Assembly (NCBI RefSeq): GCF_001189965.1
Contig: NZ_LFLU01000011.1
Span: 62,001-126,000, forward strand
Length of the DNA: 64,000 bases
Source: Herbaspirillum rhizosphaerae
GTDB lineage: Bacteria; Pseudomonadota; Gammaproteobacteria; Burkholderiales; Burkholderiaceae_D
Direction of reading: 5' to 3'
In this document: one piece after another, positions 21,789-37,361 of the stretch
How the letters are laid out: the number at the start of each line of letters is the position of its first letter
Position numbering within the stretch: the first letter of the stretch is position 1
Position numbers and translations under genes: made by a program
Notes under the pieces: model-generated
What the model saw: only the letters and a program-made list of their open reading frames with translations
Databases searched by the model: none
What the model was told of the DNA's origin: nothing

Positions 21789-23462
21789 ATGGAAATTGTC
21801 TTTACCGTTCTGATCCTGCTGCTGGCCGTTGCCGTCTCCGGCGTGGCGGCGCGTCTGGTCCCTTTCAAACTGCCGCTACCGCTGTTCCAGATCGGCCTGG
21901 GCGCAGTACTGGCGCTGCCGCTGTTCGGCCTGCGCATCAGCTTCGATCCCGAATTGTTCCTGCTGCTGTTCATTCCGCCGCTGCTGTTCACCGACGGCTG
22001 GCGCATGCCCAAGCGCGAATTTTTCCGGTTGGCGCAACCCATCCTGGCGCTGGCGCTGGGACTGGTGCTGTTCACGGTGCTTGGCGTGGGCTACTTCATC
22101 CACTGGATGATTCCGGTGATTTCGCTGCCGTCCGCGTTTGCGCTGGCGGCAGTGCTGTCGCCGACCGATGCGGTGGCCGTGGCGTCCATCATCGGCAAGG
22201 GGCGCCTGCCGCCGACCATGCAGCACGTGCTGGAAGGCGAAGCCTTGATGAACGATGCGTCCGGCCTGGTCGCCTTCAAGTTCGCCATCATCGCCGTATT
22301 GTCGGGCACCTTCTCGCTGCTGGACGCCAGCATCAGCTTCACGCTGATTTCCATCGGCGGCATCGCCGTCGGTCTGATCGTGGCATGGGGTTTCGGCCTG
22401 GTTCGCCGCAAGATCATCGAATGGAGCGGCGACGAACCCGGCATCCAGGTCGTGCTGTTGCTGCTGATCCCCTTCACTGCCTACATCTTCGCCGAACACT
22501 TCGGCTTGTCCGGCATCCTGTCCGCAGTCGCCGCCGGCATGCTGATGCCGTATATCGACACCGCCGGCGCCGAATCGGCCGCCACGCGCATGCAGAGCCA
22601 GAGCATCCTGACCATGCTGGAGTTCGTCTTCAACGGCATGTCGTTCATCCTGCTGGGCCTGCAGTTGCCGGGGATCGTCAGCCTGGCGCATCTCGACGCC
22701 AAGGTGGCCGGCAATGTGCCGGTGTGGCATCTGTTTGCCTACATCGTCGCCATCACGGCGGCGCTGATTACGCTACGCTTCGTCTGGGTGTGGTTCAACC
22801 TGCGTCTGCGCCGCTTCTCTGCCGCCGTACGCGGCCAGCGCGCGAAACAACGCTATTTCGACGTGCGGCTGATCAGCATCACCTCGCTGGCCGGCGTGCG
22901 GGGCGCGATCACACTGGCGGGCGTGATGTCGATCCCGCTGATGATGCCCAACGGCCATGCCTTCCCGGCACGCGACCTGCTGATCTTTCTGGCCACGGGC
23001 GTGATCGTCTGCTCGCTGCTGGGCGGCAGCTTTTTACTGCCATGGCTGCTGAAAGGTCTCAAGCTCGACGCCGACAACGAACGTCGCCGCAACGAAGAAA
23101 TGATGGCCCGCCTGCGCGTCTCCGAGGCGGCGGTGCGCAGCATTGAAGAAGCGCAGGAGCGCATGGGCGCAGGCATGGATCAGGACGACCTGGCCCTGCT
23201 CACCGAAGTCAGCGGCAGCCTGCTGGCGACCTATCGCATGCGCATGGACGCCGAAAGCGGCACCGAAGAAACCCATCGCGTCGCCAATCGCTTCAAACAC
23301 TTCGAGCGCGAACTGCGGTTGGAAGCAATCCGTGCCGAACGCCGTGAAGTACACCACCTGCGTGCCGAACAGCAGATCAATGACGAGACCTTCATCGCGT
23401 TGATCAATCAGATCGACCTGGCGGAAACCTGGCTGATGGGCTCGCTGAATGCGGCGCATTGA
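21789..23462 (+). CDS. Na+/H+ antiporter, CPA1 family
   Basis: A 557-residue monovalent cation/proton antiporter. About twelve membrane segments span residues 1-410. The core motifs are LSPTDAVAVASI and EALMNDASGL, which contain the acidic residues used for ion exchange. The C-terminal 140 residues are cytoplasmic, charged and helical (EERRNEEMMARLRVSEAAVRSIE-like), a regulatory tail also seen in the YjcE/NhaP group. No partner genes. Followed by repeat copy B and a strong terminator. Confidence 0.9.
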   Translation: MEIVFTVLILLLAVAVSGVAARLVPFKLPLPLFQIGLGAVLALPLFGLRISFDPELFLLLFIPPLLFTDGWRMPKREFFRLAQPILALALGLVLFTVLGVGYFIHWMIPVISLPSAFALAAVLSPTDAVAVASIIGKGRLPPTMQHVLEGEALMNDASGLVAFKFAIIAVLSGTFSLLDASISFTLISIGGIAVGLIVAWGFGLVRRKIIEWSGDEPGIQVVLLLLIPFTAYIFAEHFGLSGILSAVAAGMLMPYIDTAGAESAATRMQSQSILTMLEFVFNGMSFILLGLQLPGIVSLAHLDAKVAGNVPVWHLFAYIVAITAALITLRFVWVWFNLRLRRFSAAVRGQRAKQRYFDVRLISITSLAGVRGAITLAGVMSIPLMMPNGHAFPARDLLIFLATGVIVCSLLGGSFLLPWLLKGLKLDADNERRRNEEMMARLRVSEAAVRSIEEAQERMGAGMDQDDLALLTEVSGSLLATYRMRMDAESGTEETHRVANRFKHFERELRLEAIRAERREVHHLRAEQQINDETFIALINQIDLAETWLMGSLNAAH

Positions 23463-23485
23463 TCCTCGTCCAACTGCATCTCTGT

Positions 23486-23583
23486 CGTCCTGACGAAAGT
23501 CAGGACCCAGCGGCGTATAGAGACGGCGGATTGAAACGCGGACTCTGCGCGACGACACCGGGTCCCGCGTTCGCTGGGACGAC
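23486..23583. repeat. Dispersed two-hairpin repeat, copy B (inverted)
   Basis: The same element as at 6821 in the opposite orientation: left hairpin CCTGACGAAAGTCAGG (23489-23504), right hairpin CCCGCGTTCGCTGGG (23564-23578, one arm base changed), bounded by CGTC and GAC. The interior differs from copy A. Confidence 0.8.
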
Positions 23584-23626
23584 ATAGGTTAGAACAAGCG
23601 GCAGAAGATGATAGAACCCGCAAAAC

Positions 23627-23663
23627 AAAAACGGCGTCATGCACATCGCATGACGCCGTTTTT
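23627..23663. terminator. Bidirectional terminator
   Basis: A 16-bp perfect stem, AAAAACGGCGTCATGC with GCATGACGCCGTTTTT, 5-base loop and T-tract. It separates the convergent antiporter and phosphoesterase genes. Confidence 0.93.
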
Positions 23664-23689
23664 ATTTAACGCAGCAAACTCGGCTCAAC

Positions 23690-25318
23690 TCAATTGGCTT
23701 GCGACACCAAAGCATTGCTGAGATCGCCGATCGGCTTGCCGCCGTTGGACTGGATCGCCTTGTCGCGCAGCGTGATGCCGTCGAGCACCGGCAGCGACCA
23801 GCGGCGCGTGATGAAGCGCAGCACCGAGCTGGTGTCATACAGACTGTCGTCGACATAGCCCTTCTTCGCATACGGCGACACGATGATGGCCGGGATACGT
23901 GTGCCCGGGCCCCATTTGTCGGCCTTCGGCGGTGCGGCGTGATCCCAGAAGCCGCCGTTTTCGTCATAGGTCACGACGATCAGCATGTGGCCCCATTGCG
24001 GGCTTTGGCGCAGCTTGTTAACCACGTCGGCGATGTGCGCATCGCCCGATGCAACGTCGGCGTAACCGGCGTGCTGGTTCAGGTTGCCTTGCGGCTTGTA
24101 GAACGACACGGCCGGCAACTTGCCCGCAGCGGCGTCTTGCAGGAAGCTGCTGTCGAAGTCCTTCAGATGCTCGGCGCGGTAGGCGGCGTTCTTCACCGGA
24201 TCCATGTTGGCGAAGTAGTTGAACGGCTGGTGATGGAACTGGAAGTTCGGCGTCGGCGACGGGAATTTGCGGTCGGTCTGCGCTGCCTTCGTCGTCGCAT
24301 TCCATGCGCCGGCGTACCAGGCCCAGCTCACGCCCTTGTCGCTCAGCAGGTCGCCGATGTTCTTTTGCGTTTGCGGCGGCAAGGTCGATGCGCTGTTCGG
24401 ATCGGCATACAGCCTGGCGCTGTCGCTCGCGGCCGATGCGACGTTGCTCGGTTGGTAAGGCGGCTGCATGGTGTTGATGGCATACGACATGCCGTTGGCG
24501 TCAGGCGGCGTCAACGTGCCGTCGTTGGCGTATTTCTGCGCGCCGTCGAGCGTCGACTTCGGCGAACCGGAAGCCGGGGTCAGGCGCACGAAATTGCCGT
24601 TGGCGTCGACGTCGATCTTGGAGATGCCGCCCCTGGCCGGCGACTTCTCGGCGTTCGCATATTGCGGCGTGCAGGCGCAGATCAGGTATTGGTGATTCTG
24701 GAAGGAACCGCCGAAGGAGCCCATGAAAAAGTTGTCGGCCAGCGTGTATTCTTTCGCCAGTTTCCACATCGCCATGCTGCTGCCGTCGTAGTAACCCATG
24801 GACAAACCGCCGGCGTCGGAGTACGTGGCGAACTTGTCGTTCTTGCCGCCGTTGATCTGCATCTGGTTGTTATAGAAACGATGGACCAGGTCGCGCGTGA
24901 CGATGTCGCCGCCGATATTCATGCCATCCTTGCCGTCGATCTGGAACGGCTTGTTCGGCATGCCGGCCGATTGCGCCTGCGTCATCACCTTGGTTTGTCC
25001 CGGCGCAGTCACGCCGCCCCAGGTTGGCGGCAGCACCGGCAACACGGCGCCGTCGACATCGACTTGCGGCACATAAGCGCCTTTGGCAGACGGGTTCACA
25101 CCAGGAATGCCGTTGGCGCCCGGGAACAAGCCGTACAAGGTGTCGAAGCCGCGGTTCTCGGCGTAAATGACAACGACGGTGTCGATGCTGCGGACGGCCG
25201 TATCGTTACCGGCAAGGTTGGCCCCGCCGCTGCAGGCGGAAAGGCCGACGGCGATGGCGGCGGCCATCAGGGAGAGGCGGATTGGCTGTCTGAAAGACTG
25301 GCTACATTGGAGGGGCAT
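23690..25318 (-). CDS. acpA: AcpA/phospholipase C-type phosphoesterase
   Basis: A 542-residue exported enzyme of the phosphoesterase family that includes acid phosphatase AcpA and bacterial phospholipases C (alkaline phosphatase-like fold). The N-terminus is a lipoprotein-like signal peptide (LMAAAIAVGLSACSGG). The family motif VVIYAENRGFDTLYG carries the metal-binding and nucleophile region, and YDENGGFWDHAAPP near the C-terminus supplies metal ligands. The start at 25318 is chosen over an upstream ATG at 25399 because it gives a normal lipoprotein signal. Substrate uncertain: phosphomonoesters or phospholipids. Confidence 0.85.
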   Translation of the reverse strand: MPLQCSQSFRQPIRLSLMAAAIAVGLSACSGGANLAGNDTAVRSIDTVVVIYAENRGFDTLYGLFPGANGIPGVNPSAKGAYVPQVDVDGAVLPVLPPTWGGVTAPGQTKVMTQAQSAGMPNKPFQIDGKDGMNIGGDIVTRDLVHRFYNNQMQINGGKNDKFATYSDAGGLSMGYYDGSSMAMWKLAKEYTLADNFFMGSFGGSFQNHQYLICACTPQYANAEKSPARGGISKIDVDANGNFVRLTPASGSPKSTLDGAQKYANDGTLTPPDANGMSYAINTMQPPYQPSNVASAASDSARLYADPNSASTLPPQTQKNIGDLLSDKGVSWAWYAGAWNATTKAAQTDRKFPSPTPNFQFHHQPFNYFANMDPVKNAAYRAEHLKDFDSSFLQDAAAGKLPAVSFYKPQGNLNQHAGYADVASGDAHIADVVNKLRQSPQWGHMLIVVTYDENGGFWDHAAPPKADKWGPGTRIPAIIVSPYAKKGYVDDSLYDTSSVLRFITRRWSLPVLDGITLRDKAIQSNGGKPIGDLSNALVSQAN

Positions 25319-25397
25319 GGCTATTCTCTTTTTCTTGAACCGCAGGGGACGAATGGGAATGAGGACGGCTACTATGCTAGCCGGTAAATATAACCAC

Positions 25398-25437
25398 AAA
25401 ATGACAAGATCGCTGCATCCAGCGATCTTGTCATTTT
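25398..25437. terminator. Terminator after the porin gene
   Basis: An 18-bp perfect stem, AAAATGACAAGATCGCTG with CAGCGATCTTGTCATTTT, and a 4-base loop, lying between the end of the porin and the start of acpA. T-tracts flank it on both strands, longer on the plus strand. Confidence 0.85.
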
Positions 25438-25544
25438 TTGATTGCTTCCGGCGTCTTCAAGCGCAGGCCCTATTGTACGGGCGACAGGCCGATGAGGGAT
25501 GACGAAAATCGGCTGACCGGCGCTGCGTCCGGTCAGCACCGGTG

Positions 25545-26708
25545 TCAGAAATCGTGCTTGATGCCCAGGGCCAAGGCACGCAAATTGCGTCCTTGCAGGG
25601 CGTCGCCTGAAGTGTAATGCGCCCCGCCAAGATCGTATTGGGCGTTGCGGCCGTTGCGGAGTTGCGCCAGCTGCGACCAAAGTTCGGTACGTTTTGACAA
25701 CGCATAGCGGTATCCCAGAATAAACAGATTGGATTGAGAGCCGTCGCCGGTGCTGATGCCGGAATAAACCGGCGTCTGATCACCCTTGCCCTGCCCGGCG
25801 TGATACCAACCCAGTTCGATGGTATGCGGACCGATGTAGCGACGCCCGACTATGCCGAAGCCGTCCTGTTTCAAATTGCGTTTGCCGGGATTGCTGTAGA
25901 GCAGCGTCTGGTAGTAGGCGCCGATATATCCCTGGGTGCCGATCTTGTAACCGCCCGCCAGCATGACGATATGATCGTTGAGTCCCCTGCCGCGCAAGTT
26001 GTGATGCAGGTTATAGGCCAGCGCGACCTGTACGTCCTCGGTTTTATATTTCAATGCATTCGACCAGGCGTAAGAATTGCACCCCGTCAGTTCCGTCAAG
26101 CCCGCGTGCGTAGCGAAACTGAAGCCGCCCATCGACGGCGTGTCATAACGAATCGAGTTGCCGTAACGGTTATCGAAAGAAAACCGGTTGGAGGCATTCA
26201 GATTGCCGGGAATCGTGCTGGCGCAGTTATCGGTTGGCGAGTCGATGCCGGCATTGTCGGTGAACATGTTGCTGAATCCGTTGGCCCAGAAACCATTGAT
26301 ATTGTCGTTCGTGACATTGGTCAGGTAACCAGGTCCCGCAATGGAATGCAGATCATCCAGTGCGGTCAGCATGAAGCCGATTTTGACGCGCCCGAACGGC
26401 CCCTGCAAACCGATGGTCGTTTCCCGGTTTCCCAGACCGCCGGCGCCGGTATCCGGATTAAAACCGGACTCGATCATGAAGAGTGCATTCAATCCTCCGC
26501 CGAGGTCCTCGGTTCCTTTGAATCCCAGACGGCTCGACAAATTATTCTGTCGCGTGATGGAGCCCTGGCCTGCGCCGTAGCCGCTGTAATTCACCATGCC
26601 GACATTGATGCGGCCATACATCGTCACATTGGATTGGGCATAAACATGGCCGCTACAGACAGCCATGGCGATAGTCATGATTGACGACTGTGCTCTTGTA
26701 AGTTTCAT
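25545..26708 (-). CDS. Gram-negative porin (Burkholderiales OmpC-like)
   Basis: A 387-residue outer-membrane trimeric porin precursor. A signal peptide ends near VYAQSN; mature sequence begins VTMYGRINVGMVNY, the typical first strand of beta-proteobacterial general porins. The barrel signature GSRLGFKG-type (SSRLGFKGTEDLGGG) and the terminal phenylalanine (LGIKHDF) needed for barrel assembly are present. It allows diffusion of small solutes. It stands alone with its own terminator. Confidence 0.93.
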   Translation of the reverse strand: MKLTRAQSSIMTIAMAVCSGHVYAQSNVTMYGRINVGMVNYSGYGAGQGSITRQNNLSSRLGFKGTEDLGGGLNALFMIESGFNPDTGAGGLGNRETTIGLQGPFGRVKIGFMLTALDDLHSIAGPGYLTNVTNDNINGFWANGFSNMFTDNAGIDSPTDNCASTIPGNLNASNRFSFDNRYGNSIRYDTPSMGGFSFATHAGLTELTGCNSYAWSNALKYKTEDVQVALAYNLHHNLRGRGLNDHIVMLAGGYKIGTQGYIGAYYQTLLYSNPGKRNLKQDGFGIVGRRYIGPHTIELGWYHAGQGKGDQTPVYSGISTGDGSQSNLFILGYRYALSKRTELWSQLAQLRNGRNAQYDLGGAHYTSGDALQGRNLRALALGIKHDF

Positions 26709-27149
26709 TGCGCGTTCTCCTCGTTTCGGTAGGGCGATTGCCCGTGGGTGAAACCATGCTCATCAACATGTCGCAACATCGCTGAAACCGGCCAGTTCAG
26801 TGCGAGCGAGAATAGCGAGGAGAAGCGTGCGGAGTCTCTAGCTGAAGTTCGATAAATAGCGACACGTCACGATGTAGTTTTGTAGTTTCGCGAAGCCGAC
26901 GATGCACCAATCACGACGTGCTGAATGCTTCAATTTTTATCACCTAAAAAACTTCTACCTGTGTAGTCGGTTCATCGCTTCTGCGTCTGAAACAAAACGG
27001 ACATTTCATCTCTATTTGATGAGCGCCGCACGGAATCGGCAGCACGCCTCCTACACTCGTCACGTCGCGGATGAGCGCAGGAAAACAAAGCGTGTTGTGC
27101 GATCGTCGCCACATCCGTGATGTGAAAATCAATCAACAGGAGATGAACG
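26709..27149. other. Divergent intergenic region, porin / 2H protein
   Basis: 441 bases between divergent genes. It must hold both promoters. The part from 26880 to 27060 is A/T-richer than its surroundings. I see no convincing small gene, operator or RNA structure. Confidence 0.5.
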
Positions 27150-27932
27150 ATGAAGAAACGCAGCTTTATGAAAATGGCCGCCCTCGGGACATTGGGCGCA
27201 AGCCACTACCTGCCGGGTGTGGCGGCGGAGACCGGCGCCCCTCTCAAGAAATTTGATGAGAACGGCGTCGTCAGACCGTTCGGCGGCAATACCGTCGTCT
27301 ATGACACGGAAAAAACCAGCGCTTTATTCTTGACCATGTTGCGAGTACAGGTCGAATTGCAGCGTCATTTCGGCGGAAGCATCACGTGTTTGCCGCCCGA
27401 TTCTTATCACATGACCTTGTTTGAAATGGCGAACCAGCAAGACAGGACGCCGGGACTCTGGCCCTCCTCCGTTCCTCTCGATGCGTCTGTCGACGAATGC
27501 ACGAAAAAACTGACGGCGATCCTCAAATCGGCGCGCTTGTCTTTCCCCCAGAAGGTGAACATGAAGATCGATCACAATCGTCCTTTGTCGCTGCCCAAAG
27601 AGCACAAGCCGGGATCGCAATCCGCATTCATCATTCCGCTGCTGCCCTATTCCTCCGAAGACGCCGAGATGCTGCGTTCATTCCGCAACCAGCTATCGCA
27701 GGTCAGCGGCATACGGGCGCCGAATCACGACACCTACGTCTTCCATACCTCGATGGGTTATCGGGTAAAACCCATGTCCGCGGATGCTTACGCCATGTTC
27801 GAAAAATACTATAAGAAATGGCTGACAGAGATGGATCAGGCCGCCGGAAAAATCAGCTTCAACACGCCGGCATTCTGCGCCTTTGAAGACATGTATCAAT
27901 TCAATCCCGTCGTTGTTTTCGGCAAGACTTAA
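27150..27932 (+). CDS. Exported 2H-phosphoesterase-like protein
   Basis: A 260-residue protein with an N-terminal signal (KKRSFMKMAALGTLGASHY) that has only a weak Tat character. Two H-x-T/S motifs, H87-M-T89 in SYHMTLFE and H199-T-S201 in YVFHTSMGY, are 112 residues apart, the hallmark of the 2H phosphoesterase superfamily; the pattern resembles the DUF1868 group. These enzymes act on 2',3'-cyclic or linear oligonucleotide bonds, but substrate here is unknown and export is unusual. A clear AGGAG Shine-Dalgarno precedes the ATG. It is monocistronic. Confidence 0.7.
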   Translation: MKKRSFMKMAALGTLGASHYLPGVAAETGAPLKKFDENGVVRPFGGNTVVYDTEKTSALFLTMLRVQVELQRHFGGSITCLPPDSYHMTLFEMANQQDRTPGLWPSSVPLDASVDECTKKLTAILKSARLSFPQKVNMKIDHNRPLSLPKEHKPGSQSAFIIPLLPYSSEDAEMLRSFRNQLSQVSGIRAPNHDTYVFHTSMGYRVKPMSADAYAMFEKYYKKWLTEMDQAAGKISFNTPAFCAFEDMYQFNPVVVFGKT

Positions 27933-28723
27933 ACTCTCCCGGGCGGTCGGCAAGCGCTCACGTCAGTAGCCGAAAATAAAAAACAAATCTGACTGAGCGA
28001 GCCGACGGCCGCAACCATAAACGGGTTGCGATCAGGCGATCGGAGGAAGCGCTTGATCACACACCAAGCTGCGCAACAAACTGGCGGGGACATGTCAGCT
28101 GCCTCCTTCATCCCGAATCGCGGAATTCATCTCTGCAATTAAAAAACAACTAGAACTCATTTCATCAACAGGCTTGAGATGCGTTCTACTATCGCTTGAT
28201 CGATCTTCAACAAAAAAACACTGCCTTGATCGCGACTTATGCAACGGCATCGATGATTGTTACAAGAAAAAAACAGATTGCCATCATCGCAATATGTCGA
28301 GCAGAAGCGGCATCGATTCATCATTAACCCGACCATCGCGATACGCCGCAAAATCCTCACAAAACCCAGTCTGGTGGCCGCTCACAAGCCCCTTCCCCGA
28401 ATCTGAAAACACCGACTATATCGCCTGGTATCGCTTGTGCTGGATTGTCTAATTCGAAAATAGACGAGTACATATTTCGACCATGAATATCGAATTAATT
28501 TTGGTTTTTACGGATTTTTCAAAAGGCATGAATCTAGTTCAAAGAGCGAATCTACAATGAGTTCCTTTTCGAATTTCCGGTAGGTATTAATCGCCGGTGA
28601 TGCAGTAATTTAATTTGGTTTCGGTCTGCTCGCACCTGGCATGTGCGTCTGTTTCTGCTGTTGAAAATGGTCGACGGTGTGTTGCGGGTTTCGTTTTCAG
28701 TTATTCCTTCGGAGGGTATTTAC
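27933..28723. other. A/T-rich gene-free stretch upstream of the urease-like operon
   Basis: 791 bases of clearly lower GC than the flanks, with many A- and T-runs (for example around 28200-28280 and 28440-28620). Short frames exist, such as 28174-28452, but none has a Shine-Dalgarno sequence or convincing composition. It probably contains the promoter of the urease-like operon; I could not pick a good -35/-10 pair. It may mark the edge of an acquired segment. Confidence 0.5.
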
Positions 28724-29026
28724 ATGAGCGATATTGGGTATGGTCAGGCTTTCATGGACACGGCGCTGGCGGCGATCATCGCCAGAAAAAGACTGGAACG
28801 TGGCGTCAAGTTGAACCTGGTGGAAGCGGAAGCGCTCATCCGGGATTTCATTCACGAGGGCGCCAGGGACGGCAGGTCGGTGGCGGAGTTGATGGCCGCC
28901 AGCGCGGGAGTTCTGACGCGTGATCAGGTCATGGAAGGCGTTGCCGACATGCTGACCCCCATCACCACCGTCGGAAGTTTTCCAACGGGTCTGCATCCTG
29001 TCACGGTCTGGAATCCGATTCGATGA
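28724..29026 (+). CDS. ureA: Urease gamma-subunit homologue
   Basis: A 100-residue protein, the exact length of urease gamma (UreA). Conserved blocks are recognisable in order: [47 protein letters not shown] and a terminal VTVWNPI in place of the usual VTVHNPI. The first 20 residues are divergent. A strong GGAGGG Shine-Dalgarno lies 7 bases before the ATG, which fixes the start although the frame is open to 28643. First gene of an operon with alpha- and beta-like subunits. The symbol denotes homology only; the complex is unlikely to be an active urease because of the alpha subunit. Confidence 0.9.
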
Positions 29027-29107
29027 CAGGCAAGCATCCGGTTCGATGGTGTGCAGGGGCGCCCAGCCCTGTTTTTTGAATATTTCGTCAAAAAAAATGG
29101 AGTCAAC

Positions 29108-30745
29108 ATGACAAAGATTACTCGTGACAAGTATCGCAATATGTTTGGTCCGACCACAGGAGATCGTTTCCGCCTGGGCGATACCAACCTGTGGGCGCAA
29201 ATTGAACGCGACTTTACGACCTATGGCGAAGAGCTCACCTTCGGCATGGGAAAAGCGATCCGTGACGGGATGGGGCAATCCCAGCTCTCGCAGGCACAAG
29301 GAGCATGCGACACGGTCATTATCAATGCGGTGGTGATCGACCACACCGGCGTGTTCAAGGCGGATATCGGCATCACCGGCGGCAATATTTCCGGCATCGG
29401 CAAGGCCGGCAATCCGGATATGCAGCCCGGGGTCAGCCTGATTGTCGGCCCCGGCACCCAGATCATCGATGCAAGCGGCAAGGTGGTGACGGCGGGAACG
29501 GTGGCCTCGAATGTACCGATCTCGTCTCCCAACATCCTGGGGGCCATGTCCGCCTCCGGCGTCACAACGGTGATCGGCGGCGGCTCCGGGCCGCTCACGG
29601 CGACCCGCGTCACCAGCTCCACGCCCGGCGCCTGGGCAGGATTGCGGCTGCTCGACTCGCTGGATGCCTGGCCCTTGAATTTCCTTGTCCTCGGCGTCGG
29701 CAACGTGTCGCAGCCTGCGGCGCTCATAGAGCAGATCACGAACGGTATCGCCGCCGGGTTCGTGGTGCACGACAATCGCGGTTCTACACCTGCCGCGATC
29801 GACGCTTGTCTGAGCGTGGCCGACGACTACGGCCTGCCGGTTGTGATCGCTTCGGATACATTGAATGAGTCCGCCTACGTTGATGACACTATCGCAGCGT
29901 TCAAAGGTCGCACGGTCATTGCCGTTGACATTGACGGGGTTGAAGGCGGCCATAGCCCGGACGTGGTGAAACTGGCGGGATTGCCGAATTGCCTCCCCAC
30001 CACCAGTATCGCGGCGCATCCTCACACCAAGGACACTATCGATGGATTGCTCGATGCAGTCGTCAGGGCCAACAATCTCGACAAGGCGATTCCGGAAGAC
30101 GTGGCGGTGGCGGAGTCGATGGTGTTAAGGGATGTGATCACGGCGGCAGATATTTTGCATGATCTGGGCGCTATTTCCATCTTCAGCGCGACGTCCGTCG
30201 TTCCGGAGGCGAACGCGACGATGGCGACCCGGGTATGGCAAACAGCCCACAAGATGAAGGCCCAACGCGGCGCCCTTCCGGGGGACAACCCGCAGTCGGA
30301 TAACGCACGCATCAGGCGCTACATCGCGAAATATACGATCAATCCCGCGATCGCCTATGGCGTCAGCCGGCAGGTCGGGTCGGTGGAAGTCGGCAAGCTG
30401 GCGGATCTGGTGCTATGGGATCGGGCGCGTTTCGGGGTCGCCCCGGAGCTGGTCATCAAGGGCGGAGTCGCCGTGGTGGACCGCGACTCGGCCATCCTTT
30501 CCACGGACCAGAGCCTGATCTTCACCGCCGGCGAGAATCGCCTCCCCTCCGACGCTTTCCGCCACAGACCGACCAGTATCGAGGTGAACAGGGTGCGTGG
30601 CCTGCGCAAGGCGGACATGGTGCACAACGGCACAACTCCCCGGATCGCGGTCGACCCGGAGACGTTTCAGGTCATGGCAGAGGGCGAGCTGCTGACCGGC
30701 GGGCCCGCGGACCTTGTTCCGTTGGCGCAGTTGTATACCCTCTGA
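29108..30745 (+). CDS. ureC: Urease alpha-subunit homologue lacking all nickel ligands
   Basis: A 545-residue amidohydrolase-fold protein clearly homologous to UreC (about 567 residues): [60 protein letters not shown] and [10 protein letters not shown] are all kept. A constant offset of about 1-2 residues to Klebsiella numbering places N135 and P137 at His134 and His136, V219 at the carbamylated Lys217, A248 at His246, D274 at His272 and T362 at Asp360. The flap Cys319-His320 is A321-N322 and Arg336 is M338; only His219 remains (H221). Hence no dinuclear nickel centre can form by the known chemistry. The frame is intact with a GGAG Shine-Dalgarno, so it is maintained, not a pseudogene. The symbol denotes homology only. 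Confidence 0.93.
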
Positions 30746-30785
30746 ACCGACACCCCCATCCACACTTTCAGGAGGACGCAATATC

Positions 30786-31058
30786 ATGATTCCAGGCGAA
30801 TACGACACCACCATCACCGGCGACATCGAACTCAACCAGGGCCGGCAACCCGTCAACCTCACGGTTGTGAACACCGGAGACCGGCCCATCCAGGTGGGCA
30901 GCCACTATCACTTCCTCGAGACAAATCCGGCCCTTTCTTTCAACAGGGATCTCGCCCGCGGCTTCCGCCTGGACATTGCGTCCGGCTCCTCTGTCCGGTT
31001 CGAGCCGGGGCAGAGCCGCGATGTGACGCTGGTTCCTTTCTCAGGCAGGCGCCCTTGA
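30786..31058 (+). CDS. ureB: Urease beta-subunit homologue, C-terminally short
   Basis: A 90-residue protein homologous to urease beta (about 101-106 residues). It starts MIPGEYD and retains [34 protein letters not shown] and FSGRR, then stops where normal UreB continues into the FGFRGEV-type tail. An AGGAGG Shine-Dalgarno lies 10 bases upstream. It comes after the alpha gene (gamma-alpha-beta), whereas urease operons have gamma-beta-alpha. Beta normally packs against alpha and helps to form the trimer, so these proteins may still assemble into a urease-shaped complex. Confidence 0.9.
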
Positions 31059-31158
31059 CAAAGTCTCCCATCGGATGATCGATGGGAGGCAGTCCGCAGC
31101 AGAACAAAGCCGCGCCGAAGGTGGAAACCCCGGCCGGCGCTAACATTGCGAGTTGACG

Positions 31159-32271
31159 ATGCTACTAGTGTTAATGCCGATTCTGGTCGCGGCGGTATTC
31201 GCCACGTCCGGAATACTCAAGTCCGCGGACGGCGCGGAAACCCTGTCCTTTCTCCGCCGCCTGCCGCTGCCCGGATGGCTGAAGAACAAGACGGTCGCAG
31301 GACTGATCCCGCTGGGGGACTTTGTACTCGCTGCAGCGCTTGTGCTTGCCGGCGGCGGCTGGTTTCTCGCCGTCGGCGTCGCCACGCTTGCGGTCACGCT
31401 CGCTTACCTGGCGATCGTGGTGTGGGCGTGGCGCGCGCCGGAAGAGATTGCCTGCAACTGCTTCGGCAGCCTCCGCCGGGAACCTGTCTCGGGGCGCACG
31501 GTGGCACGCAATGGCGTGCTCGTCACGGCGGCTGTCGTGCTGGTCCTCATGGGCGCCTTCGGCTACCCCGGCGTGCCCGCGCAAGTCCTGTCCATGCGCG
31601 CCGATGACCTGGCCTGGTTGCTGCTGGTATTGTGCCTCGCCGCGGCCCTCGGCTGGAGCTGGTTGCGACGGCCAGGATTGACGGCTCCCTCCGCGATCGG
31701 TGCTGCGCCCGTTGCGGAGCATGCGGACCAGGCTTCGCAGTCATGGTCGCCGATACTGCCACCGCCCTCAAGTCTTGAGCATGCGCGCGCCCGCACGGAG
31801 GGCATGCGGCTTCCTCCCATCGAGCTTGTGTCGCGCGCGGGAGACATCGTCTACCTCGACAAGCTGAACAAGAAAGAAGACCGCCTGGTGTTCTTCATTC
31901 AGTCGGGGTGCGACGCCTGCGCAGAAATCATGCCCCTGATGCCGCTGTGGGAAACCCTGCTGCGGGGCAAGATCGAAGTCATGGCCGTCAGCCAGAGCCC
32001 GCGCGCGGAGTTCATGGCGGCGCATCCCGAGGTCGCTCATTTCACCTGTTACGGCGGCCTTTCCGCGGCGGAAAAACTCTCCATTGTGGTGTCGCCCAGC
32101 ATGGTGCTGCTCGGTCACGAAGGCGTCGTTCTGGCCGGCCCCATTGCCGGGCCGGATGAGATCGCCGCATTCATGACCGGACTCATCCGTGCAGCGGTTC
32201 CCACCCCCGACACGCATCGTCGACCGCTTCATCCATCCTACATCTACGCAACGAGCGAAGGAAAATCATGA
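31159..32271 (+). CDS. MauE-like membrane protein fused to a thioredoxin-like domain
   Basis: A 370-residue protein with two parts. Residues 1-170 have about four membrane segments and a CNCFG motif (C99, C101), as in the MauE/DoxX-like redox membrane proteins. After a Pro/Ser linker, residues 210-350 form a periplasmic thioredoxin-like domain with a C251-D-A-C254 pair in FFIQSGCDACAEIMP, similar in order to MauD. In methylamine utilisation MauE and MauD are separate and help disulfide formation in the amine dehydrogenase; here they are one chain. ATG at 31159 is chosen; a TTG lies two codons earlier. The stop overlaps the next start. Confidence 0.82.
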   Translation: MLLVLMPILVAAVFATSGILKSADGAETLSFLRRLPLPGWLKNKTVAGLIPLGDFVLAAALVLAGGGWFLAVGVATLAVTLAYLAIVVWAWRAPEEIACNCFGSLRREPVSGRTVARNGVLVTAAVVLVLMGAFGYPGVPAQVLSMRADDLAWLLLVLCLAAALGWSWLRRPGLTAPSAIGAAPVAEHADQASQSWSPILPPPSSLEHARARTEGMRLPPIELVSRAGDIVYLDKLNKKEDRLVFFIQSGCDACAEIMPLMPLWETLLRGKIEVMAVSQSPRAEFMAAHPEVAHFTCYGGLSAAEKLSIVVSPSMVLLGHEGVVLAGPIAGPDEIAAFMTGLIRAAVPTPDTHRRPLHPSYIYATSEGKS

Positions 32272-34400
32272 GCACTACGCCCGCTTCACATTCCTCACCC
32301 CGCTTAGCCTGCCCATCGTATACGGTGCAACTGCAGCAGCTGCTGCAATTAGGAAACGCCGACAAAGTGATCACTGCGCGACATCGCGGCGATTTCTCCG
32401 CAGCTTTCGGTGAAAACACGCTGGAAGCCTTCCATCGCTCCTACCAGAATTGCCGGGCCGCCATCGAGACCGACGTGCGCTTCGCTCAGGTGCCGTCGGG
32501 AGGCGACCAGAAAGACGCCGCCGTCGTTTTCCACGACACCAACATCGGCAAGATGCTGGTGGACCGCTACGCGCCGCACTTCTGGGATCCGAGCAATATC
32601 GGTCGGGACAACACCCCGCTCACGCAGTTGACGGTGGCGCAACTGCAGGCCTACAAGGTGCTCAACGTCTTTACGCGACAGCCGCTTGGACGAGGCGATC
32701 CCAATTATCCCGGCGTCCATACGCTGAATCAGCTCCTGACCGACTATGTGCGCGGGGGATATCAGTCCCTGATCTATCTCGACATCAAAATGTCGGGGGA
32801 CGATGTCGCCAACCGCAAGTACGTGATCGACACCGCACGGGTGATCAAGGACGTCGACGACGCCAATCCCGGCTCGGACCTGTTTAACCGCGTCATCCTG
32901 AAATACAACTTCCATCTGTTCCCGAGGCCGGTCGATCTCTCCAACGCCCTGGCAGCAGCCGGAGTCATCCCTATCCTCGGCGTCCTCGCCAACCCCTATC
33001 TGGCGCCGTTCGGGATCAAGAGAATCAACGATCTCCCCGCCGGCACCGTGCCTCAGCCGCCTGTGCCGACTGGCGGCGCGCGCCCCTACACGGCCGACTA
33101 CAGCACGCAAGCCGCGAAAGCCGTCGGATGGTGGTCCGCCGCCGTCCGCGACAACGGCACCAGCCGGCCGATCGTGACGCCGGTCGCCGTCGAGATCGTG
33201 ATCAAAGACTCCATCAATTTCCTCAATGTGCGAGATCAGACGCACCCGGTCCTCGGCGATTACCTTGTCCCTGTCAGCGGCACCGCATTCAGTTCCATGC
33301 CGGGCTGCGCAGCGAACATGCCGGCACTGCATCCATGCAACACCCAACCCGGTTCCGTCGCCGAGCTTGCCGCTATCGTCAAATGGTACAAAAAAGCCCT
33401 CGGGATTTTCGCCGCCATCCCTGACTACCTGTTCTGGCGAGACGAGTACACCGAATTCGGCGTCCCCAACCTGACGCCGCCCTCCTCCGGCGGACTCCTC
33501 AAGACCATGCGCGCCGACGTCGGTTACTACAACAACGATTCCCGCTGCTGCTACTGGGCCGATGACCGCCTCTCCAACGACCCGGAGTTCATCGAAGGCG
33601 CCGACTACCGGATGATCCTCGAATGGCACAGTGCCATCGGCGTCAACCTGTTTACCGCAGACGACACCGATTCCATCGATCGCTTCTACGACATCAGAGG
33701 AAATCTCGACAAGATTGCCATGCCGGTGCTCATCGCCCCCGACCGCAGGATGAACTCAGCGCTTGCCTGGGCATACCGATATTATGATCGTCCGGCGCGT
33801 CCCAGCGTGCAAATCAGATCCTGGCAAACCGATGCCGCCGGCAATACGCTCTGCATCTGGGGCAACGCGTCGAGCGCCTGGGTGGGCCGCTGCGACGCCT
33901 CCCTCTGGCCGGCCGAGCAGACAACATTTGTCACACGCCTGGTTACCGCCCCTGCCGTTGCGGCGGAAGGATGGATGCAAATCTGGAACCGGACCATGAG
34001 TCATTGCCTGTATAGCGACTCCGGGAGCGACGCTCGATGGGCTGCCGCTGCGTCGAGCCAATGCCAGCAAACCGCCCTCGCATCGCATTGGGACTGGGAC
34101 AATGGCGGCCACATCCGGACGCGCAACAATCCTGCGCGGGTCCTGTATAGCGATTACGTCAACCCCAATGAATGGGAAACCTTGAAGGTGGGAAGCATTA
34201 GCAGCGGCGACAATGACAAATGGTTCATCGTCGTGAGCCACGTCGGCCCCGGACCTGGGCCTATCCCACCGCTCCCCCCGATACCCGGCAACCGCTTAAG
34301 CTCACCGCCGTCACTCTTGGCGCTGTACTTTAAGAATCCGTTCACCGGTGGGCTTAGAGTGATCAACCGATTGTTAGGAGGCTGGTTCAATCCACGCTAA
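32268..34400 (+). CDS. Glycerophosphodiester phosphodiesterase-like protein with C-terminal extension
   Basis: A 710-residue protein. Residues 35-330 look like a GDPD/PLC TIM barrel with intact catalytic features: H39-R-G41, E49-N-T51, E67 and D69 in AIETDV, H89-D90 in VVFHD and LDIKM. Large insertions lengthen the barrel to about residue 500. The last 180 residues (TLCIWGN, CLYSDSGSD, RVLYSDYVN, each followed by a Trp) look like a ricin-type beta-trefoil or related repeat, with low confidence. No signal peptide or membrane segment is visible, unusual for a barrel with an attached binding domain. The ATG overlaps the previous stop by 4 bases (ATGA), so it is translationally coupled. Substrate unknown. 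Confidence 0.75.
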   Translation: MSTTPASHSSPRLACPSYTVQLQQLLQLGNADKVITARHRGDFSAAFGENTLEAFHRSYQNCRAAIETDVRFAQVPSGGDQKDAAVVFHDTNIGKMLVDRYAPHFWDPSNIGRDNTPLTQLTVAQLQAYKVLNVFTRQPLGRGDPNYPGVHTLNQLLTDYVRGGYQSLIYLDIKMSGDDVANRKYVIDTARVIKDVDDANPGSDLFNRVILKYNFHLFPRPVDLSNALAAAGVIPILGVLANPYLAPFGIKRINDLPAGTVPQPPVPTGGARPYTADYSTQAAKAVGWWSAAVRDNGTSRPIVTPVAVEIVIKDSINFLNVRDQTHPVLGDYLVPVSGTAFSSMPGCAANMPALHPCNTQPGSVAELAAIVKWYKKALGIFAAIPDYLFWRDEYTEFGVPNLTPPSSGGLLKTMRADVGYYNNDSRCCYWADDRLSNDPEFIEGADYRMILEWHSAIGVNLFTADDTDSIDRFYDIRGNLDKIAMPVLIAPDRRMNSALAWAYRYYDRPARPSVQIRSWQTDAAGNTLCIWGNASSAWVGRCDASLWPAEQTTFVTRLVTAPAVAAEGWMQIWNRTMSHCLYSDSGSDARWAAAASSQCQQTALASHWDWDNGGHIRTRNNPARVLYSDYVNPNEWETLKVGSISSGDNDKWFIVVSHVGPGPGPIPPLPPIPGNRLSSPPSLLALYFKNPFTGGLRVINRLLGGWFNPR

Positions 34401-34482
34401 GCGTTCAGTTCACCCTACTGAGGCCTTCGCGACCCGGTTGACGGGGGAAAGCCCAATCAAACCGAAAATGGTCTGGCGTCAG

Positions 34483-34521
34483 AATTGGATGTCGATGGGC
34501 TCATCGACATCCAATTTTTTT
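34483..34521 (+). terminator. Terminator of the urease-like operon
   Basis: A 15-bp perfect stem, AATTGGATGTCGATG with CATCGACATCCAATT, 4-base loop and seven T residues. It ends the 28724-34400 operon and separates it from the cytochrome c peroxidase gene. Confidence 0.93.
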
Positions 34522-34670
34522 GCACCTTTTTTTACGCAAAAAAGGAACAGAGATTCTGATGAGAAGACAATGGACGGCTCATTGGTAAATACAGGTACAA
34601 AACGACGATAATGCAGCATCCGGAACCGCTTCTTCACACTTTAGTCACATTGCCCTGCTAACCTGCGCGC

Positions 34671-35942
34671 ATGAAATCCCTGTACCTTGTCGCCGCCGTC
34701 ACGGCCTCCCTCGCCCTCGCCGCCCTGTATTTCGACAGCCAGTCGCCGGTGGTCGCTGCTTCGGCAGGCACGCCCGCTTACGCCAACGCTGCCTATGCGC
34801 CCCAGCCGGGACGCCGTCCGAGCGTGGAAGAAATGACCGCGCTGGGCCGCACCATGTTTTTCGACCCCTCGCTGTCGGGTTCCGGCAAGCAATCCTGCGC
34901 AACTTGCCATAGCCCGGACCATGCCTTCGGTCCCCCGAACGACCTGTCGGTGCAGCTTGGCGGCAAGGACATGAAAACCGTCGGCACGCGCGCGGTGCCG
35001 TCGCTGCGTTACGGGCAAAACGTGCCGCCGTTCAGCGAACACTTCCACGACGACGACGGCGACGACAGTATCGATGCCGGCCCGACCGGCGGTCGCACCT
35101 GGGACGGCCGCGCCGATTCGGCCCACGACCAGGCGCGCATCCCTTTGTTGTCGGCGCACGAGATGGCCAATGCCGATGCAGCGGAAGTGGTCGCCAAACT
35201 TAAACGCGCACCGTATGTTGCGCAATTCAAGGCGACCTTCGGCGAAACGATTTTCGACAATACCGATCGCGCTTTCCAGGCGGCGCTGATGGCGCTGGAA
35301 GTATTCCAGGAAAGCCCGGTCGATTTCTATCCCTACACCAGCAAGTACGATGCATACCTGCGCAAGCAAACCACCTTGAGTGCCCAGGAATTGCGCGGTC
35401 TGGAATTGTTCAACGAGCCGGCCAAGGGCAATTGCGCTTCTTGCCACCTCAGCGAGATCCTGCCCAACGGCGCGTTCCCGCAGTTCACCGATTACGGCCT
35501 GATCGCCGTGGGCGTGCCGCGCAACAAGAAGATTCCTGCCAACAAGGATCCGCACTATTACGACTTCGGCCTGTGCGGCCCGGAGCGCACCGACTTCAAG
35601 GACAAGCCGGAATACTGCGGCCTGTTCAAGACCCCGACCCTGCGCAACATCGCGCTGCGCCAGACCTTCTTCCACAACGGCGTGTTCCACACGCTGCAGG
35701 AGGTGATGGAGTTCTATGTCCAGCGCGATACCAATCCGGAGAAATGGTATCCGCGCAATCGCGACGGCAGCATCCGCAAGTTCGACGACCTGCTGCCGGA
35801 GCATTTTTCCAATGTGAACATGGAGCCGCCCTTCGATCGCCAGCCGGGCGACAAACCGGCGCTCAACGATGCAGAGATCAAGGACGTGATTGCGTTTTTG
35901 AAGACGCTGACGGATGGTTACAAACCTGAGTCGAAACAGTAA
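34671..35942 (+). CDS. Di-haem cytochrome c peroxidase / MauG-family protein
   Basis: A 423-residue periplasmic di-haem protein. An N-terminal signal or anchor (LYLVAAVTASLALAALYF) precedes two c-type haem sites: C76-A-T-C79-H80 and C255-A-S-C258-H259. Family members are either peroxidases that reduce H2O2 or MauG-type enzymes that make the tryptophan tryptophylquinone cofactor. Regions LFKTPTLRNIALR and FFHNGVFHTLQEVMEFY are typical of the family. It has its own transcription unit, 270 bases after the terminator of the urease-like operon. A possible redox link to the MauE-thioredoxin protein is only positional. Confidence 0.88.
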   Translation: MKSLYLVAAVTASLALAALYFDSQSPVVAASAGTPAYANAAYAPQPGRRPSVEEMTALGRTMFFDPSLSGSGKQSCATCHSPDHAFGPPNDLSVQLGGKDMKTVGTRAVPSLRYGQNVPPFSEHFHDDDGDDSIDAGPTGGRTWDGRADSAHDQARIPLLSAHEMANADAAEVVAKLKRAPYVAQFKATFGETIFDNTDRAFQAALMALEVFQESPVDFYPYTSKYDAYLRKQTTLSAQELRGLELFNEPAKGNCASCHLSEILPNGAFPQFTDYGLIAVGVPRNKKIPANKDPHYYDFGLCGPERTDFKDKPEYCGLFKTPTLRNIALRQTFFHNGVFHTLQEVMEFYVQRDTNPEKWYPRNRDGSIRKFDDLLPEHFSNVNMEPPFDRQPGDKPALNDAEIKDVIAFLKTLTDGYKPESKQ

Positions 35943-36043
35943 GGGACAACTCAGCACTGGACGGTGCAACGAAGTAAAACCAGGCGAAACGAGGCTGAGC
36001 CAAGCGAGACGAACAGTTCTGTTATGAAGCTGTGTTAACGAGA

Positions 36044-36068
36044 AAAACCCGCTGCGAGCGGGTTTTTC
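36044..36068. terminator. Bidirectional terminator
   Basis: An 11-bp perfect stem, AAAAACCCGCT with AGCGGGTTTTT, and a 3-base loop, between the convergent cytochrome c peroxidase gene and the small gene at 36121. Confidence 0.9.
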
Positions 36069-36120
36069 ATTTCATGCTGCGACAAGAGTAACGACCAGCG
36101 CAACGACCAGCAGCAAGGAA

Positions 36121-36357
36121 TCAGGCAGTTGTGCTGATCGTGGTGCCGATGACTTCGCCGTTGGAATTGCGCGAGGACTGCGTGGCTTGCGCCTGGCGTG
36201 CAGCTTCAGCGCGTTGTTCCTCGAGCCGGCGTTGTGCGTTTTCTTGATCCTGACGCGCCTGCAACGCGCGCGCGTTGTCGAGATTGGTTACCGACGGACC
36301 GGAGTTGGGAGAGCTGGATACAGCGCCAGGAGAGCTGGCAGTAATTGCGACGTCCAT
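36121..36357 (-). CDS. Small hydrophilic hypothetical protein
   Basis: A 78-residue protein with a Ser/Pro-rich N-terminus (starts MDVAITASSPG), a central charged helix rich in Gln, Arg, Glu and Ala (near 30-60, coiled-coil-like) and a Ser/Thr-rich tail. An AGGTGA Shine-Dalgarno 6 bases before the ATG and a terminator downstream support a real gene. No family recognised. Confidence 0.65.
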   Translation of the reverse strand: MDVAITASSPGAVSSSPNSGPSVTNLDNARALQARQDQENAQRRLEEQRAEAARQAQATQSSRNSNGEVIGTTISTTA

Positions 36358-36551
36358 AAAATCACCTTTCAGTACCTGAGAACATAGTAGGAGTCCGGCG
36401 TCGAAATGTGCGGACCTGTGAGCATCTTACACCTTTGAGACAGCTTGCCAAGCTACCGAAGCGTTTGCTTACAAAGCCGGGTTGCCGTCACGACAACTTG
36501 GCGAAAACCCGCGCCATGCCTCGTTGACAACGAATATTAGCTGAGCGGCAA

Positions 36552-37361
36552 TCAATGACAATCAGGAATATTCTGATCCAGATACACCTCGAAGGCGACG
36601 TTGTTGACCCACTTCTTTCTGAGCTCGATCCAGAAGCTGCCTGCAACCCAGTCTGCGCTTGCCTGTTTCAGATAGGAAATTGATTTTGCGTCATCGGCGC
36701 GCACCACGAAGACCAAGGTCTGGTGGCTTTGCACCGGCAATCGTGCAGAGAACTTTTTCCATTCCGGCAACTTCAGCAAATCGTTGAGCATGGTGTCGTC
36801 GTGCACGGCGGCATCGCAGGCGCCGATGCGTAAAGACAACAGCGAATCGGCCGGTGCGCGCTGCACTTTTTCGATCGCGCCGTATTTCGCAGCGATCTTG
36901 CCGACATAAGCGCCGCCTTCGGACAGGCACACGGTGCGGCCCTTCAACTGCTCCCAGCTTTTGATATCGGTGTCGCTGCGCATGATCGCCATCGCTCCCG
37001 CGCTGTAACCGGTCGGAATGGCGACGACGCCGGCGTCGCGGCGCAGGGCGTCGTTGTCATCGGTCAGCGCCAGCACGACGTCGGCGCGTCCCGACTTGAC
37101 CCACTGCGCGGCATTGCCGTTGTCTGTTTTAGGTGTCCCGAGTTTGAGTTTGAGGCGCTTGCCGAGATCTTCGATCAGCGTCGACTCGGGGCTCTCGGGC
37201 GTACGGAATTTGGCGCCGGCGACATAGGCCGGCAAAGGATACGACATGCCCGCCACCAGCGTGCCGCGTTGCCGCGCGGCGTCGATGCCGCTGTCGGCGG
37301 CATGCGCCGACGCCAGCAAGGACACGGACACGGACAACAATACTGAGGCGACGGATTTCAT
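36552..37361 (-). CDS. Periplasmic substrate-binding protein (SBP_bac_3 type)
   Basis: A 269-residue periplasmic binding protein. The signal peptide ends at SAHAAD (near 22). The mature part has the type II binding-protein pattern of the amino-acid-binding family (RQRGTLVAGMSYPLPAY, RADVVLAL, GRTVCLSEGG). It lies 19 bases after the permease of a NitT/TauT-type transporter, although that transporter already has its own binding protein of another family (38345). It may broaden specificity or have an independent role; the ligand is unknown. Confidence 0.8.
   Translation of the reverse strand: MKSVASVLLSVSVSLLASAHAADSGIDAARQRGTLVAGMSYPLPAYVAGAKFRTPESPESTLIEDLGKRLKLKLGTPKTDNGNAAQWVKSGRADVVLALTDDNDALRRDAGVVAIPTGYSAGAMAIMRSDTDIKSWEQLKGRTVCLSEGGAYVGKIAAKYGAIEKVQRAPADSLLSLRIGACDAAVHDDTMLNDLLKLPEWKKFSARLPVQSHQTLVFVVRADDAKSISYLKQASADWVAGSFWIELRKKWVNNVAFEVYLDQNIPDCH

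Follow-up and report, generated by a model that had tools for sequence, protein, structure and literature searches.

A urease-like operon in the 64,000-nucleotide stretch of Herbaspirillum rhizosphaerae DNA analysed here (the window) encodes homologues of all three urease subunits, and its alpha subunit has lost every one of the six classical nickel ligands. A second ligand-less copy occurs in one other species of the genus, the alpha subunit is under purifying selection, and in both genomes the operon lies together with genes for a GDPD-domain protein and a MauE-thioredoxin (MauE-Trx) membrane protein. We tentatively propose that UreABC' is a maintained, non-ureolytic pseudo-urease that may work with these partners as a binding subunit or scaffold without catalytic function.

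A urease-like operon and its lost nickel site

The six metal ligands of urease are essential for its dinuclear nickel site. The three genes of the operon are as follows.

28724..29026, + strand: ureA', UreA-like gamma subunit of 100 aa (ORF and Pfam PF00547)
29108..30745, + strand: ureC', UreC-like alpha subunit of 545 aa, six nickel ligands gone (ORF and Pfam)
30786..31058, + strand: ureB', UreB-like beta subunit of 90 aa with a shortened C-terminus (ORF and Pfam PF00699)

The original prediction of three intact UreA-, UreC- and UreB-like genes with good Shine-Dalgarno sites was borne out by the reading frames and by Pfam: there is no internal stop in any of the three, and each is preceded by a GGAG-type site. 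All Pfam matches were above the cut-offs (UreA', PF00547, E-value 1e-25; UreC', PF00449, 1e-50, and PF01979, 4e-35; UreB', PF00699, 5e-38), identifying the products as urease subunit homologues. With the NCBIfam models, UreA' passes TIGR00193 (93.2 vs 82.3) and UreB' passes TIGR00192 (125.2 vs 90.3), while UreC' misses the 680-bit cut-off of the urease alpha equivalog TIGR01792, at 578.3 bits, and passes the broader subfamily model NF009686 (629 vs 354).

The active site of UreC' was read in alignments to the canonical UreC of the same genome, to 167 canonical UreC and to the Klebsiella aerogenes chain 1eju_C. None of the six ligands (four histidines, a carbamylated lysine and an aspartate) is kept: N135, P137, V219, A248, D274 and T362 stand at urease H134, H136, K217, H246, H272 and D360. 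The flap residues C319 and H320 are replaced by A321 and N322, and R336 by M338, leaving His219 (window H221) as the sole position retained out of ten; the statement that every ligand is lost refers to the classical six, outside which His219 stands. The equivalent of His219 is listed as a ligand in one passage of PMC7547064, which nevertheless counts four histidines. This realignment returned the very residues that had been named from the sequence at the outset. All ten active-site columns are unvarying in 167/167 canonical UreC, and because none of these rows changes any of the ten, the replacements in UreC' are far beyond chance.

A conserved C-terminal loop found in ureases is absent from UreC'. 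No hydrophobic membrane segment was found in this protein, and no secretion signal is visible by eye on UreA', UreC' or UreB'. A Pfam scan of 18 proteins from the island and its flanks showed no ureD/E/F/G accessory gene. The genome also carries a separate canonical urease, with UreC on another contig together with its own ureA and ureB. Its subunits are 45-62% identical to those of UreABC' (UreC 50%, UreA 45%), and its operon has the gene order A-B-C, as does the cassette of the relative described below, whereas the order in the window is A-C-B.

Ligand loss was compared with divergence among other ureases. From 164 matching plasmid records (one at 60-80% identity was left out), six ureases at 35-42% identity to the query were examined, and 6/6 keep the six ligands. 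Cys319 is not strict, being V or S in 3/6. The actinobacterial plasmid ureases L206-L209, homologues at 35-41% identity, likewise differ from UreC' in that all four keep the six nickel ligands. By sequence UreC' resembles ordinary canonical ureases more closely than it does these divergent ones, yet it has lost the site. Because the more distant ureases (35-42% identity) keep all six ligands, divergence alone, as judged from these alignments, does not explain the loss in UreC'.

Second UreC copies in other Burkholderiales families, considered as further ligand-less cases, were rejected, as ligands are kept in 5/5 examined. A very divergent second UreC (L167:3777-5546 and L168-L171; 42-44% identical to the query, ligands intact) has a stem branch of 2.36 in the tree, is spread over at least two other families of the order, and in several of these genomes occurs in addition to an ordinary-scoring urease. 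A divergent gamma/alpha pair lies on a plasmid of Streptomyces sp. NBC_00637 (L206:3282-6507, NZ_CP109047.1), beside biosynthetic genes; its UreC is 37.8% identical to the window UreC', keeps the six nickel ligands and has Val at Cys319. This pair sits between a run of condensation-domain, phosphotransferase and hypothetical genes and a 2OG-Fe(II) oxygenase. The stretch carries no annotated accessory gene, and the urease homologue was possibly recruited for natural-product biosynthesis.

A second species, purifying selection and descent

Among 34 genomes of the genus, a second ligand-less UreC' was found in one other species (G006, a single-contig assembly). It is 59% identical to that of the window (UreA' 65%, UreB' 61%) and reads D P N H T D A N I S at the ten active-site positions. 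The C-terminal loop is again absent from this UreC', a single cysteine (C234) is common to the two alpha subunits, and both UreB' end at the same place, 17-18 residues short of the window genome's own canonical UreB. Across 211 columns that are at least 98% conserved among the 167 canonical UreC, 132 are kept by both UreC', 55 are lost by both and 24 by one; at 28 of the 55 jointly lost columns both carry the same new residue. Loss is concentrated in the active site, where 1/10 columns are kept compared with 131/201 elsewhere (Fisher p 7e-4).

The original prediction had called for other UreC with the same loss, forming a separate clade with its own conserved residues in the old pocket. Beyond the second species itself, both copies share replacements there: in urease numbering, E220>D, W222>R, H272>D, G277>E, C319>A, H320>N, H321>N, Q362>V, M364>P, G365>E and R366>A, with His219 kept. 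The shared new pocket residues in window numbering are D222, R224, D274, E279, N322, N323, E367 and A368. Only 5/10 active-site positions are identical between the two proteins, against 59% overall, the differing ones being 134, 217, 246, 336 and 360. As the pocket is no more conserved than the rest of UreC', the two sequences lean slightly towards a structural or binding role.

The two UreC' grouped together with 100/100 support in a 66-row tree, on long branches of 1.63 and 1.18; the canonical UreC of most rows from the window's family nest with Massilia, Duganella and Undibacterium, which places the genome in or close to the Oxalobacteraceae. The tree had been expected to exclude a duplication from the organism's own urease, but AU tests do not reject it: p-AU was 0.459 when UreC' was constrained with the family's canonical UreC and 0.302 with that of its own genus. 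The grouping of the pair is thus firm, whereas a sister place to family or genus ureases is not rejected.

No third ligand-less UreC' was found, by score, in 34 genus, 392 family, 399 order and 359 phylum genomes, which are overlapping samples with ligands read in up to 30, 30, 20 and 10 returned loci respectively; the large searches scored three to four candidates per genome, and a more distant ligand-less copy could be missed. Among the matches listed, the family search with profile P0001 gave 696 bits for the relative and 518 for the next match, and profile A2 gave 1131 bits for the window with a next best of 675 (order) or 691 (phylum), in samples that left out G006. A genome-contig search confirmed 590 loci, of which 80 were read and all 80 were canonical. 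When 182 of 197 loci were aligned to P0001, 171 proved canonical and 11 were the two UreC' genes themselves, in full-length or partial copies.

Comparison of the window UreC' with that of the relative gave pN 0.28 and pS 0.64 (NG86 dN 0.355, dS 1.43, ratio 0.25), where synonymous sites are near saturation and the ratio is an upper figure; for UreA', UreB' and MauE-Trx the synonymous distance is beyond saturation and a ratio is not computable. UreC' is therefore under purifying selection, with dN/dS at most about 0.25. A lone decaying copy with dN/dS near 1, which the original prediction had named as the contrary outcome, is not what these two species contain. On clade, shared residues and dN/dS alike, the sequences agree with the earlier proposal of a maintained non-ureolytic protein built on the urease scaffold.

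A mobile-looking island and its partner genes

The operon lies within an island, which together with its co-inherited partner genes goes beyond what had been seen from the operon itself. The island, its other members and its flanks are as follows.

23690..25399, - strand: phosphoesterase PF04185, left flank, older neighbourhood, 88% identical to the relative's
25414..34627, no strand assigned: the island, 9.2 kb, with no counterpart at this spot in four other genomes of the genus
25545..26708, - strand: porin (Porin_4), island member (Pfam)
27150..27932, + strand: 2H-phosphodiesterase (DUF1868), island member with an export-like N-terminal signal by eye (Pfam)
31153..32271, + strand: MauE-like membrane domain, then a thioredoxin-like part containing CxxC (Pfam; start possibly ATG 31159)
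32268..34400, + strand: GDPD-domain protein of 710 aa with an extra C-terminal part; its start overlaps the MauE-Trx stop
34671..35942, + strand: di-haem cytochrome c peroxidase/MauG family (CCP/MauG), right flank, older neighbourhood, 90% identical to the relative's

In those four genomes of the genus the phosphoesterase gene and the CCP/MauG gene stand head to head with nothing encoded between them, and in the window the 9.2 kb (25414-34627) replaces 14-33 bases at this junction. The relative has the head-to-head pair intact and carries the same seven genes in an 8.65 kb segment across the phosphoesterase from this junction, ahead of the sodium/proton antiporter. The co-directional run is ordered A' C' B' MauE-Trx GDPD in the window and GDPD A' B' C' MauE-Trx in the relative. 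Window 25414-34627 and L117:4565-13215 of the relative hold the same seven-gene cargo, inverted and in permuted order, and the two sites are some 1.7 kb apart.

Within the genus, each of the four island genes searched (UreC', MauE-Trx, GDPD and 2H-phosphodiesterase, the porin being left out) occurs in the same 2/34 genomes, compared with 14/34 for the CCP/MauG flank gene. The GDPD gene was found in 2/373 family genomes and in 1/299 genomes of a phylum sample, the one being the window itself. No GDPD relative was found in plasmids or in phage records, and viral contigs gave three short GDPD matches, all partial and none longer than 65 residues; MauE-Trx relatives were found neither in plasmids nor in viral contigs.

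Synonymous divergence differs along the region. The two flank genes, like the canonical UreC of both genomes, have dS of 0.41-0.58 and four-fold differences of 0.24-0.30. Intermediate values were obtained for the porin (dS 1.15, four-fold 0.50) and the 2H-phosphodiesterase (dS 1.96, four-fold 0.59), and the ure' genes, MauE-Trx and GDPD reach four-fold differences of 0.64-0.75. Because the synonymous divergence of the cassette exceeds that of its flanks, it most simply did not descend with them, and at least one copy would have been acquired from outside. Horizontal movement of the cassette is the simplest reading.

Pfam identified no integrase or transposase among the named island genes. The window contains no tRNA, positions 23000-37000 gave no Rfam match, and none of the repeats found in 25300-34800 borders the island as a direct repeat. 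Defence models (PADLOC) matched none of the eight proteins scanned. The left edge of the island falls within a hairpin (25392-25443) that has 24-base arms, 92% complementary, and a 4-base loop. Another palindrome is found around 23627-23663, past the phosphoesterase, on the same side as the relative's insertion.

The partner proteins have diverged further than UreC' between the two genomes (identity 42% for GDPD and 35% for MauE-Trx, vs 59% for UreC'). The GDPD proteins of the window and the relative (681-710 aa) have eight cysteines in common, and what we take to be the GDPD catalytic set (HR, E-N, E-x-D and H) is kept in their aligned N-terminal part; no signal peptide is visible by eye. The C-terminal half of these proteins (32268-34400; L117:5161-7206) is unclassified; they also have a linker rich in proline and share a short tail (INR...G..N.R). 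In the MauE-thioredoxin fusion (window 31153-32271; L117:9657-10709) only the CNC and CxxC cysteines are common to both species, and there is a strongly conserved YGGLSAAEKLSI stretch.

Possible roles and significance

How might such a cassette work? Because all three subunits and most framework residues are retained together, UreA', UreC' and UreB' would still assemble in the cytoplasm as a urease-type alpha-beta-gamma complex. With the ligands and flap residues lost, the dinuclear nickel site and flap chemistry would be gone and with them urea hydrolysis by the urease mechanism, going by the established urease chemistry set out in passages of PMC7547064. Purifying selection keeps UreABC' as part of a cassette with the MauE-Trx membrane protein and the GDPD-type phosphodiesterase, for which the UreABC' oligomer may act as a non-catalytic scaffold or ligand-binding subunit. 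The MauE-thioredoxin protein may in turn make or repair disulfides of the cysteine-rich GDPD protein; this mechanism leaves unexplained how the signal-less GDPD protein would get to the oxidising compartment. UreC' has the marks of an amidohydrolase-superfamily pseudoenzyme, with catalytic and metal residues lost and the gene and, by sequence, the fold kept. Against the scaffold reading, GDPD and MauE-Trx diverge faster than UreC', unlike what is expected of a tight co-evolving complex; the carriers are two species, in which the tie between UreABC' and GDPD is one of gene linkage; and the shared pocket residues could equally mark a new active site.

The last point leads to a rival that we judge rather unlikely, though not negligible: a new enzyme on the urease scaffold, with a rebuilt pocket, a metal-free or differently metallated site and a different substrate, which may be a phosphodiester or nucleotide connected with its GDPD and 2H-phosphodiesterase partners. 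The new residues shared by both copies at the old site, the retained His219 and the membership of the partners in phosphodiesterase families all speak for it. However, only the H272 position, an Asp in both copies, is still a possible metal ligand, the D360 position is Thr or Ser, positions 134, 217, 246, 336 and 360 differ between the copies, and the active site as a whole is no better conserved (5/10) than the protein (59%). A bolder version, of a nickel-free three-subunit device in a horizontally moving island, whose rebuilt pocket would bind or convert a phosphodiester-type ligand for the GDPD and 2H phosphodiesterases, is a shade less probable still; if it is true, the pocket (His219 with the shared Asp, Arg, Glu and Asn) would found a new functional class built upon the scaffold of urease.

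The remaining explanations carry far less weight. The subunits might act as a regulatory decoy, mixing with canonical urease or sequestering its accessory proteins and so tuning urease; a canonical urease with subunits 45-62% identical is indeed present in the genome, but we consider this improbable, since a strong canonical UreC match occurs in 32/34 genus genomes and the cassette in 2/34, the cassette is tied to GDPD and MauE-Trx rather than to urease genes, and the changes that both copies share in the alpha loop and at the C-terminus of the beta subunit may stand in the way of mixing. Ureases are reported to have antifungal or insecticidal effects that need no catalysis, and UreABC' could similarly be a non-catalytic 'moonlighting' effector delivered with the GDPD protein. 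The island does carry a porin and the GDPD protein, and the relative's GDPD weakly matches the NCBIfam model of the plant-pathogen effector AvrBs2 (E 0.0096); at 13.9 bits against a cut-off of 1000, this match is far under the cut-off, three plain GDPD/phospholipase models score better, the ure' proteins show no secretion signal by eye, and PADLOC, which holds defence models only, matched none of the eight proteins, so that an effector is also improbable. Decay of a urease copy under relaxed selection would fit the long branches and the 41% amino-acid difference within one genus, but is already disfavoured and very improbable: all three subunits are open in both copies, pN is well below pS, and the losses and 28 identical replacements are common to two species, whose canonical UreC are 99.5% identical (563/566), indicating that the divergence is not recent drift after their split. 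An assembly or sequence error was rejected and can practically be dismissed, given an intact, independent relative in a single-contig genome and many separate substitutions without a frameshift.

The nearest known system is Klebsiella aerogenes urease (1eju/1fwa), with which UreABC' shares three homologous subunits and the framework motifs; UreC' aligns over nearly the whole alpha chain of 1eju_C (phmmer E 1e-157). It differs from that enzyme in the replaced ligands, flap Cys/His and Arg336, in the missing alpha loop and beta C-terminus, in the A-C-B order and in an island where no accessory genes were seen. For the proposed role, the closest likeness is the pseudo-dihydroorotase of Pseudomonas aspartate transcarbamoylase, described in passages of PMC7053772 as an inactive amidohydrolase homologue that is nonetheless needed for its partner enzyme to be active; a related pseudo-domain is described there as being without zinc ligands and substrate residues. 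The family member and the partner differ in that case, and a partner role for UreABC' would follow from gene linkage. The animal CRMP/dihydropyrimidinase-related proteins use a non-enzymatic amidohydrolase fold as a binding or structural protein, but unlike UreABC' they are cytoskeletal and of a single-subunit type.

A search of open-licence papers found no ligand-less urease, and UreABC' would, to our knowledge and within that literature, be the first pseudo-urease described. Urease is a textbook metalloenzyme, and its ligands are kept in 167 canonical and six very distant alpha subunits. Automatic annotation as 'urease alpha subunit' should consequently not be equated with ureolysis. The co-inherited partners open the function of the cassette to simple deletion tests, and a maintained, ligand-less UreABC would reveal what the urease assembly can do without nickel.
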